A stretch of DNA of 64,000 bases, from IMG/VR virus record IMGVR_UViG_3300046328_000221, positions 30,046-94,045 of that record; one strand, written 5' to 3'. Under the pieces are notes generated by a model. It searched no databases. It worked only from the letters and a program-made list of their open reading frames with translations, and was not told the origin of the DNA. Shown here piece by piece: positions 35,639 through 61,024 of the stretch. This stretch comes from a virus. The position numbers and the translations under genes are program-made. How positions within the stretch are numbered: the stretch's first letter is position 1; every line of letters starts with the position of its first letter.

Positions 35639-35647
35639 TGTTATAAT
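35639..35647 (+). promoter_or_regulatory. Extended -10 promoter TGtTATAAT
   Basis: Begins 3 nt after the stop of the secreted protein. The expected start site (about 35654) is only a few bases before a hairpin, so the first product could be a short RNA unless the hairpin is read through into nrdI. Confidence 0.65.
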
Positions 35648-35658
35648 TGTATAACTTA

Positions 35659-35685
35659 GGGGAGGGCTTTTCATAGGTCCTCCCC
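35659..35685 (+). terminator. Hairpin between promoter and nrdI (terminator/attenuator)
   Basis: GGGGAGGG pairs with TCCTCCCC (8 bp, one wobble) over an 11-nt loop. The downstream tract TTAATTAT is only moderately U-rich. It may terminate the upstream gene and attenuate the nrd transcript. Confidence 0.6.
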
Positions 35686-35718
35686 TTAATTATCCCCATT
35701 TTAGAGAGAGGCTTAAAG

Positions 35719-42606: not shown

Positions 42607-42675
42607 GGATAGATAGTTTAATAGGCAAAACGGCGTTGATCAGCCAGATTGGGAGTTCGACTCTCCCTCTATCCA
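42607..42675 (+). tRNA. tRNA-like fold with shortened anticodon arm, isotype unclear
   Basis: 69 nt. Acceptor GGATAGA/TCTATCC, D-arm GTTT/AAAC with GG in the loop, and T-arm GGGAG/CTCCC with TTCGACT are all canonical. The anticodon arm is only GGC-GTTGATCA-GCC (3 bp, 8-nt loop), about 4 nt short, so no anticodon can be read safely (TGA or GAT are options). It may be a decaying or specialised tRNA. Confidence 0.55.
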
Positions 42676-42678
42676 CGA

Positions 42679-48374: not shown

Positions 48375-48429
48375 GTTTATGCCTGCCAATTGGGGGCAAT
48401 TAACTCGCTTAACAAAAGGAGATGATAGA

Positions 48430-48813
48430 ATGGTTACATTCACATATGGAGGCTTTGCTCAGGAATTTGAGAGAGCTTTTGGAAACACAGGAAACAATAC
48501 CTACCCACCATACAATGTCGTTAAGGTTGATGACGACAAAATTGTTATGGAATTTGCGGTAGCTGGATTCAAGAAGAACGATATCAGTATTACTACTGAG
48601 AAGAATGTTCTAACAATCAAGGCAGAACAGCCAGAGACAGATGAGAAGGCATATCTACACAAGGGTATCGCTGCTCGCAAGTTTACTCGTGCTTTCACAC
48701 TACCAGAGTATTTTGAGGTAGAGTCTGCTGAATTTGAATACGGTATTTTGTATATCGATCTAATTCGTAATATCCCAGAAGAGAAGAAACCAAAGAAGAT
48801 CACTATTAACTAG
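48430..48813 (+). CDS. Small heat shock protein (HSP20/alpha-crystallin)
   Basis: 127 residues. The start at 48430 follows AAAGGAG; the long upstream frame overlaps the opposite-strand gene and is rejected. The alpha-crystallin domain (residues 25-125) shows VVKVDDDKIVMEFAVAGFKK, NVLTIKAEQPE and FTLPEYFEVESAEFEYGILY. The end carries the I-x-I motif (KKITIN). ATP-independent holdase, probably protecting phage or host proteins during infection. Confidence 0.9.
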   Translation: MVTFTYGGFAQEFERAFGNTGNNTYPPYNVVKVDDDKIVMEFAVAGFKKNDISITTEKNVLTIKAEQPETDEKAYLHKGIAARKFTRAFTLPEYFEVESAEFEYGILYIDLIRNIPEEKKPKKITIN

Positions 48814-48822
48814 TGATATAAT
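48814..48822 (+). promoter_or_regulatory. Extended -10 promoter TGaTATAAT for a candidate RNA
   Basis: Begins at the base after the HSP20 stop. The expected start site coincides with the first base of the closing stem at 48830. Confidence 0.7.
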
Positions 48823-48829
48823 GGGATTG

Positions 48830-48914
48830 TCCCCTACATAGGACTACGCTTAGGATGGATTAGTTACCTATTTTATGACCGTGGCCTTCGTGCTTGAATA
48901 GCCTGTGTAGGGGA
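48830..48914 (+). ncRNA. Candidate structured small RNA
   Basis: About 85 nt closed by a 13-bp stem, TCCCCTACATAGG with CCTGTGTAGGGGA (one G-U). A weak internal hairpin TAGG/CCTA is possible. It has its own promoter and no ORF. The next gene has a separate leaderless promoter, so this is not its leader. No tRNA features; no known RNA family recognised. Confidence 0.6.
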
Positions 48915-48930
48915 TTCCTCATAACAACTG

Positions 48931-48939
48931 TGCTATAAT
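48931..48939 (+). promoter_or_regulatory. Extended -10 promoter TGcTATAAT, leaderless start
   Basis: Six nucleotides from the -10 to the ATG at 48946; no Shine-Dalgarno. Confidence 0.75.
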
Positions 48940-48945
48940 ATACTT

Positions 48946-49428
48946 ATGAATGAACAATTGGTTAATGCACTAAAGGTGCTTCTTGCAGATACAATAGCTT
49001 TAAAATTTAAGGCTCACGGCTTTCACTGGAACGTTGAAACAGATGACTTCCCACAGTACCACGCCTTCTTTGGATCAATCTATGAAGACTTTAATGAGGC
49101 CGTAGATCCATTTGCAGAGTGGATTCGTATGCTAGACAATAACCAGTATGCTCCTTTCTCTTTGTCTCGTCTTGCTAGCCTAACAACTGTTCCAGACGCT
49201 CAGGTAACTCCTGACCACGAATCTATGGCTGCAGATCTACTAGCATCTATTGAACTTATTACTCCTAAGATTGTTGAAGCTGCTGTAGTTGCTACTGCTG
49301 CTAATCAATTTGGATTGGCTAACTTCCTTGGAGATCGTCAAACTGCTCACCAAAAATGGATTTGGCAACTAAAGACTGTCGTTAAGCCTGAACCAATGGA
49401 TGTTCAGGAAACAGAACAAGGAGCATAA
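48946..49428 (+). CDS. Dps/ferritin-like protein
   Basis: 160 residues. A four-helix ferritin-like protein with Dps signatures: LKFKAHGFHWNVETDDFPQY (ferroxidase His residues) and IYEDFNEAVDPFAEWIRML (Asp/Glu ligands). It would store iron, detoxify peroxide and possibly bind DNA. The C-terminus is acidic. TAATG overlap couples it to the next gene. Confidence 0.85.
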   Translation: MNEQLVNALKVLLADTIALKFKAHGFHWNVETDDFPQYHAFFGSIYEDFNEAVDPFAEWIRMLDNNQYAPFSLSRLASLTTVPDAQVTPDHESMAADLLASIELITPKIVEAAVVATAANQFGLANFLGDRQTAHQKWIWQLKTVVKPEPMDVQETEQGA

Positions 49429-60665: not shown

Positions 60666-60679
60666 ATGTTTGGTATAAT
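60651..60679 (+). promoter_or_regulatory. Promoter TTGACT-N17-TATAAT (TGg-extended) with iteron in the spacer
   Basis: A strong promoter whose spacer contains the last iteron. It would make an RNA from about 60686, antisense to the leftward gene ending at 60737. Two small hairpins (CGGC/GCCG and CGCTT/AAGCG) are possible in the first 50 nt. Confidence 0.7.
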
Positions 60680-60736
60680 TCAATTTGGGTCGGCCACAGC
60701 TAGCCGCTTTTGTCAAGCGACTCTCTGCGGATCCCT

Positions 60737-61024
60737 TTACTCTTCTTCTGTGATAGCGGAAAGACCTAGCAATTCATCTAGGTTATCGAAACCATTATCC
60801 TCAACATCTAATGCTGTGATAAGCAAATCGAAAGTTTCACCTATGAACGCAGTTGCTTTTGGTGAAGTATCTACAATGTCATTCGCAATAGCATAGGCAA
60901 GTGGCAAACCTAAGTCGTTGTATTCAATGAAGTCAATGAAGTCCTCATCTTGACGATAGTTGAGCCATAGTTCTGCTAGGATACTAACCTGATTAGCAAA
61001 AGGTGTCGTGGCTGATTCTGTCAT
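60737..61024 (-). CDS. Acidic helical protein
   Basis: 95 residues. The start at 61024 has GGAAAG upstream; the frame continues to 61057 without a site. Acidic (FIDFIEYNDLGLPLAYAIAN, then a Glu/Asp-rich end), likely all helical. Similar acidic small proteins occur across actinophages. Last gene of the leftward array. Function unknown. Confidence 0.62.
   Translation of the reverse strand: MTESATTPFANQVSILAELWLNYRQDEDFIDFIEYNDLGLPLAYAIANDIVDTSPKATAFIGETFDLLITALDVEDNGFDNLDELLGLSAITEEE

Follow-up and report, generated by a model that had tools for sequence, protein, structure and literature searches.

The small RNA and its locus

The window analysed here, a 64,000-nucleotide stretch of a 94,045-base IMG/VR virus record, carries a predicted small RNA between an HSP20 gene and a Dps-like ferritin gene (Table 1). 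The extended -10 promoter begins right behind the HSP20 stop codon (TAG, 48811-48813), and the RNA (~85 nt) would start 6-8 nt past it, both ends being placed from the closing stem and the promoter spacing. A second promoter ends 6 nt upstream of the ATG of the Dps-like gene; this gene, like several others of the window phage, appears to have a leaderless start. Both the RNA's own extended -10 promoter behind the HSP20 stop and the separate leaderless promoter of the next gene had been claimed in the preliminary description, and both were found. The HSP20 start at 48430 has a Shine-Dalgarno sequence, and a second possible start at 48379 would be leaderless (TATAAT shortly upstream of an in-frame ATG). 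Elsewhere in the window, 35640-35690 holds an extended -10 (TGTTATAAT) followed by a strong hairpin (AGGGGAGGGC...GUCCUCCCCU), possibly a second short RNA or a terminator; in 60671-60770, another (TGGTATAAT) precedes a structured stretch of no unusual stability (z -0.7); and 42607-42676 is called a tRNA by ARAGORN, with an odd 2-nt anticodon, and likewise by Rfam.

Table 1. Features of the small-RNA locus, in window coordinates
Feature	Position	Strand	Evidence
HSP20 gene, upstream neighbour	48430..48813	+	Pfam PF00011, E 8.8e-21
Small-RNA promoter, extended -10 TGATATAAT	48814..48822	+	Sequence; -10 box at the same place in 61/62 homologous RNAs
Small RNA, predicted extent	48829..48915	+	Fold z -4.7; CM R1 91.4 bits (the window copy belongs to the training set)
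Closing stem P1, 5' arm TCCCCTACATAGG	48830..48842	+	Two-sided compensatory changes, 13/13 pairs
Element A, CTTAGGATGG-AT-TAGTTACC	48849..48868	+	Complement of helix 69 and its 3' junction
Element B, GGCCTTCGTGC	48883..48893	+	Near-complement of 23S 1964-1975
Closing stem P1, 3' arm CCTGTGTAGGGGA	48902..48914	+	Same covariation (13/13 pairs)
Promoter of the next gene, TGCTATAAT	48931..48939	+	Sequence
Dps-like ferritin gene, leaderless start	48946..49428	+	Pfam PF00210 (Ferritin), E 5.9e-14

The two arms of P1 form the 13-bp self-pairing across ~85 nt that had been described (14 bp if G48829.U48915 is counted). None of 200 shuffled sequences was equally stable, and the longest uninterrupted helix (14 bp) exceeded the maximum of 13 bp seen in 500 shuffles. 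Clear copies of the RNA were already present among loci retrieved by HSP20 and Dps proteins, behind HSP20 and elsewhere, and its best-conserved part (TTAGGATGN{1,4}TAGTTACC) matched at least 120 stretches when viral contigs were scanned; the 62 RNAs with the window's plan are termed type I (subtypes Ia and Ib). In an alignment of 36 type Ia RNAs, compensatory changes occurred on both sides in all 13 P1 pairs, the covariation among homologues by which the preliminary description had proposed to judge the stem, while the interior had no conserved pairing. When the window RNA was considered in isolation, elements A and B partly paired together, a pairing not kept in the relatives' consensus. Type I RNAs had 54 different 5' arms among the 62, in helices of 10-19 bp, and G.U pairs filled 44 of 662 stem cells. 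Since these 44 cells are valid only on the + strand, the + strand is the RNA. A -10 box preceded the stem in 61 of the 62 type I copies (26 of 62 on the opposite strand), and its distance to the stem was 6-8 nt in 58. On comparative grounds, then, this is a genuine small RNA that is encoded on the + strand and, as first described, stands free with its own promoter.

Its class was examined next to known families. Neither ARAGORN nor Rfam found a tRNA at the locus. Searches of Rfam release 15 with the window and representatives of the other types gave only tRNA/tmRNA matches at the gathering score, and permissive mode gave nothing beyond a chance lncRNA match; the scan thus returned no family for the small RNA, in keeping with the earlier statement that it is neither a tRNA nor a known riboswitch. 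A different small element occupies the slot behind HSP20 in related phages (L001, L003, L004, L018-L040, L042, L044 and others). This element (e.g., ACUCCUGGGGCAUGAGUUAAAACUGCCUCA or CAACCUGGGCAUGUUGAUAAAAGGCCCA) is an apparent H-type pseudoknot with paired changes in both stems, and it too had no Rfam match. The exact motif of the small RNA occurred in only 7 of 50 records selected by HSP20/Dps; therefore the RNA is not essential for these phages.

Complementarity to helix 69 of 23S rRNA

Only one segment of the RNA is nearly invariant, CUUAGGAUGGnnUAGUUACC, and it complements exactly the actinobacterial 23S helix 69 (H69; E. coli 1909-1929), which forms a central bridge between the ribosomal subunits (PMC7038079, PMC13189344). 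In E. coli numbering, CUUAGGAUGG pairs with 1920-1929 and UAGUUACC with 1909-1916, leaving 1917-1919 unpaired. H69 was the best site for element A of the window copy in the entire 23S rRNA (duplex -26.2 kcal/mol); with opening of the H69 stem counted, the net duplex estimate was ~-6 kcal/mol for this copy and ~-10 to -22 kcal/mol for others. A motif derived from the phage RNAs alone (CTTAGGATGGN{0,3}TAGTTACC) was then used to scan bacterial genomes and matched many actinobacteria; among the matches listed, 80 of 80 fell on the antisense strand of 23S rRNA, with GGTGGTAACTATAACCATCCTAAGGTAGCGAAATTCC... present in all 80 loci and the sarcin-ricin loop on the same strand in 74. The preliminary description had tied a regulatory or protein-sequestering function to the stress-gene neighbours. 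This is not supported for the family, as HSP20 lies directly upstream in only 20 of 62 copies and other architectures adjoin tRNA genes or lie elsewhere; since the conserved core is antisense to 23S H69, the ribosome is indicated as the target instead.

The H69 complement recurs in at least four other architectures in actinophage contigs, all with different surroundings; the architectures are named Ia, Ib, II, III and IV. The closing stem of type II is a distinct one (e.g., CCCAUAUGCCAGC/GCUGGCAUAUGGG) in which contigs differ by paired changes, and RNAs of this type mostly precede tRNA genes. Most members of type III have a terminator behind them, and type IV has a long stem and stands directly behind a tRNA-Ile gene in several contigs. 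A second segment tends to fit 23S ~1954-1980. It is weak in the window copy, where TTCGTGC (48887-48893, within element B) matches 23S 1964-1970 exactly. Since duplex predictions of whole RNAs against the entire 23S rRNA were uninformative, being dominated by long bulged duplexes, element-wise tests were used; in one of these, flanks were compared with 317 23S windows by gapped local alignment. The 23S region just downstream of H69 ranked first of 317 for the flanks of types II (z 4.1), IV (z 5.5) and Ia (a modest z of 3.2). For type III its rank was first or second (z 7.1), and L125 of this type carries GTTACGCCATTCGT, a 14-nt exact complement of 23S 1966-1979. For subtype Ib the second element was unsupported (rank 36 of 317 windows). 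Types II and III have this second complement ahead of element A, types I and IV have it behind.

This permuted order bears on whether the element acts at the level of DNA, as an attachment or homing-endonuclease site identical to part of the 23S rDNA, the RNA having no role. The matched rDNA region is a classical homing-endonuclease site (I-CeuI-type sites lie there), which would favour such an element. Besides the permutation, however, the record contains no tyrosine or serine integrase (PF00589, PF00239), the match is interrupted with a middle of variable length, the G.U pairs in the covarying P1 fit just one strand and promoter spacing is conserved, so that we regard a DNA-level site as extremely improbable.

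The unpaired centre raises the alternative of a guide for rRNA modification, a phage counterpart of snoRNAs, in which 1917-1919 would be the modified site. H69 is a hot spot of modification in bacteria, and most actinophage copies leave this centre unpaired between paired flanks, the arrangement that likens them to snoRNAs and archaeal sRNAs (C/D, H/ACA), which also pair with rRNA. The phage RNAs differ from these in being phage-encoded, in the order of their segments, which varies between architectures, and in lacking the defining boxes: the C box RUGAUGA and the D box CUGA near the ends were each found in 0 of 62 type I RNAs, as was ACA three nt from the (inferred) 3' end. The H/ACA layout, with guide strands split by a hairpin, is likewise absent, the pairing halves being contiguous or only a few nt apart; Vibrio phage and some other copies pair through the centre, and no partner enzyme has been identified. 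A guide is accordingly given only a slim chance.

To view variation without the bias of the search motif, we used 26 copies retrieved via another part of the RNA, with element A unused. UAGUUACC was intact in all 26. The first half of the complement was exact in 12, a G.U variant in one and truncated in one, and in the other 12 had an extra base that sits exactly at the end of the H69 stem, between the partners of 1924|1925. In the CM-found variants L044, L082 and L084, an A-U pair was changed to G.U. One copy, L422, has lost the promoter, the 5' arm and the first half of the H69 complement and is apparently broken; its HSP20-like frame seems to continue into the remaining UAGUUACC.

Several controls were run. 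The archaeal/eukaryal H69 complement gave 13 matches, all of them in coding DNA with open frames no shorter than 103 codons, compared with a median open stretch of ~62 codons for bacterial-type matches, of which the minority in long open frames probably arose by chance. The reversed motif gave no match in 115 records, and no record held more than one copy. A mixed motif, which joined the first half of the E. coli type to the second half of the actinobacterial one, matched 13 stretches and was rejected as a clean background: six stretches are coding (related or unrelated) and several are apparent slipped family members.

Host-matched complements in other phages

H69 sequence differs among hosts. 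The 3' strands of H69 of sampled Actinomycetota came in three versions, CCATCC, CGGTCC and CCGTCC, and CCATCC was found in only 15 of the 93 sampled genomes with matched H69, the rest having CGGTCC or CCGTCC. Since the actinobacterial form is not phylum-wide, a match indicates part of the phylum, probably the class Actinomycetes. A WhiB gene and the actinobacterial form of the complement together point to an actinobacterium as host of the window phage. From CCGTCC-type hosts, a third host-matched version, TTAGGACGG..TAGTTACC, is predicted.

In many other bacteria (E. coli and Salmonella were checked here), the H69 region contains GGCCGUAACUAUAACGGUCCUAAGG. The E. coli-type complement, TTAGGACCGN{0,3}TAGTTACG, matched 37 stretches of viral sequence, many of them from contigs 100-430 kb long, and the host-matched form UUAGGACCG..UAGUUACG occurs in jumbo-size phages and cultured Vibrio phages. 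Typically, a short hairpin is followed by the H69 complement and a terminator-like hairpin with loop GGAATTCGCTAC. In the flanks of 31 E. coli-type loci, mixed-pattern ones included, a complement of 23S 1930-1937 occurred at 16 of 31 loci after removal of the search motif (0.1 expected). In one group of these RNAs (L338, L340, L349, L359 and L381), GCGGCTGCTG or CGGCTGCTGGC additionally complements the 530 loop of 16S rRNA (517-528) over 10-11 nt.

Searches of cultured phages by blastn with the window copy and types II-IV gave no useful match; a 35-nt antisense query was needed, and the contaminating 23S records that it also matched were set aside. The RNA is present in Vibrio phages PWH3a-P1 (at about 80871-80996 of NC_020863), qdvp001, R16F, IBT_VpB-34, 10AMN and P018-4, and diverged copies occur in VnaP, 11895-B1 and VmeM-32. 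Most of these copies fall in gaps of the annotation, and tRNA or Hsp20 genes are often close by. In PWH3a-P1, CCUUGGGACCGUUAUAGUUAUGGC forms 24 contiguous pairs with 23S 1907-1930 (-41.7 kcal/mol), and GUGUCGCUACC is complementary to the next 23S strand.

These data bear on the possibility of an ordinary regulatory or protein-binding RNA, with a match to 23S rRNA that is incidental or inherited. Its strong stem and promoter would fit any small RNA; the host-matched complement across unrelated architectures and phyla, the enrichment of adjacent segments and the controls argue against this reading, which we consider highly improbable. Two properties of trans-acting antisense RNAs were found: a promoter of its own at the 5' end (61 of 62 copies, 58 with 6-8 nt spacing) and complementarity to a defined target that agrees with the type of host (the actinobacterial or the E. 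coli form of H69). Judged from sequence, the RNA very probably pairs with 23S rRNA.

A proposed action on host ribosomes

Overall, the reading that we favour, with somewhat better than even confidence, is that of a structured antisense RNA acting in trans on the 23S rRNA of the host. The small RNA would be transcribed from its own promoter and held by the covarying closing stem, its loop presenting the complement of H69 and of the junction strand behind it (E. coli 1909-1929). Often the loop would offer another such segment for a strand close by (1930-1942 or ~1954-1980). In the 50S subunit, the targeted strands are part of the surface to which the 30S is joined. Pairing with H69 in free or assembling 50S would keep these subunits out of 70S ribosomes, and their exclusion could give the phage control of host translation. 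We infer these in-cell steps, i.e., production of the RNA, its pairing with 23S rRNA and a resulting block of subunit joining or 50S assembly. We thus propose a family of phage antisense RNAs that would bind the subunit-joining face of the 50S and control host ribosomes, in which the pairing is well supported and the effect is one that we infer; for an effect on subunit joining in particular, our confidence falls slightly short of even. Counted against the proposal are that the H69 stem must open first and that element B is weak in the window copy. A block on all ribosomes would also harm the phage, so that timing or selectivity would be needed.

Shine-Dalgarno-led initiation requires free subunits, and intact 70S ribosomes can read leaderless messages; since they can, a block on subunit joining might, speculatively, spare such messages. 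In its fullest form, the proposal would be that host-matched antisense RNAs evolved repeatedly in phages of several phyla as RNA anti-association factors, which sit on H69 of the free 50S, shut down Shine-Dalgarno-led initiation and give an advantage to messages that intact 70S ribosomes read, among them the leaderless ones that the window phage appears to make; this version we hold to be rather unlikely.

Pairing with 23S rRNA could have other consequences. During abortive infection, the duplex might shield H69-H71 from host toxins that cut there, for example nucleases like MazF-mt6 (site UU^CCU, E. coli 1939-1943). MazF-mt6 reaches its site, on the strand neighbouring H69, and cuts it in the 50S only, not in the 70S (PMC5408214); the UUCCU at 1939 lies inside the targeted region, and 1935-1942 is covered by some of the RNAs. 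However, 1939-1943 is not consistently covered by types Ia and Ib whereas H69 is covered in all, and no known nuclease cuts bacterial H69 (PMC13189344), which makes a shield decidedly unlikely. Alternatively, the duplex could be a substrate of RNase III or of some other nuclease, from host or phage, so that 23S rRNA is processed or destroyed and host ribosomes are removed late in infection. The up to 24 contiguous pairs would suit RNase III, and many copies adjoin tRNA genes, which RNases process. In most actinophage copies, however, the duplexes are interrupted, and their 8 and 10 bp are short for RNase III; moreover, phages need ribosomes until lysis. Cleavage of this kind is, in our estimation, very unlikely.

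An antisense action at H69 has a synthetic precedent. An anti-H69 PNA pairs sequence-specifically with the same 23S helix and inhibits growth of E. coli, according to the citation of Kulik et al. (2017) in PMC7038079; it is man-made, short and unstructured, whereas the phage RNA is encoded and structured and has its own promoter. Phages also encode ribosomal proteins such as bS21, in which a protein replaces a component and no RNA pairs with rRNA (PMC6375957, PMC9723584). With such proteins known, it is established that phages act on the ribosomes of their hosts; a strategy that relies on base-pairing with rRNA appears to be new. The open full-text literature yielded no bacterial or phage RNA of the rRNA-antisense kind, subscription papers and preprints being largely outside this coverage.

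Trans-acting antisense small RNAs of bacteria and phages are likewise small, have their own promoters and use short complementary stretches protected by stems. Those known to us target mRNAs or other small RNAs, and we know of no bacterial or phage RNA that targets the ribosome's own rRNA; the phage RNA differs from them in its complement to rRNA and in having at least two segments for neighbouring strands. The T4 species 2 RNA (rnaD) is likewise a stable phage RNA, encoded in a tRNA cluster, and its conserved hairpin loop contains TCGCTACC, the complement of 23S 1929-1936; it lacks an H69 complement, and an 8-mer can arise by chance. When T4 rnaC and rnaD were examined, rnaD had two 8-nt complements of adjacent 23S segments, only one of which is conserved in relatives, so that we treat rnaD as no more than a lead. 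The rnaD hairpin loop GGGTCGCTACCGG (L399, T4 71053-71171) was identical in 7 of 7 Tevenvirinae sequences aligned.

Since the phage RNA is antisense to H69 and unrelated-looking, host-matched RNAs occur in phages of other bacteria, phages probably use RNA to seize host ribosomes. If this is true, they would do so by base-pairing at the main subunit bridge, a site validated by synthetic antisense, which would account for unannotated RNAs beside tRNA genes in cultured Vibrio phages and uncultured large phages. The complement would also offer a route to inferring host class, in which the three H69 versions within a single phylum could help. Lastly, it would raise the question of whether other orphan phage RNAs, such as T4 species 1 and 2, act on ribosomes.
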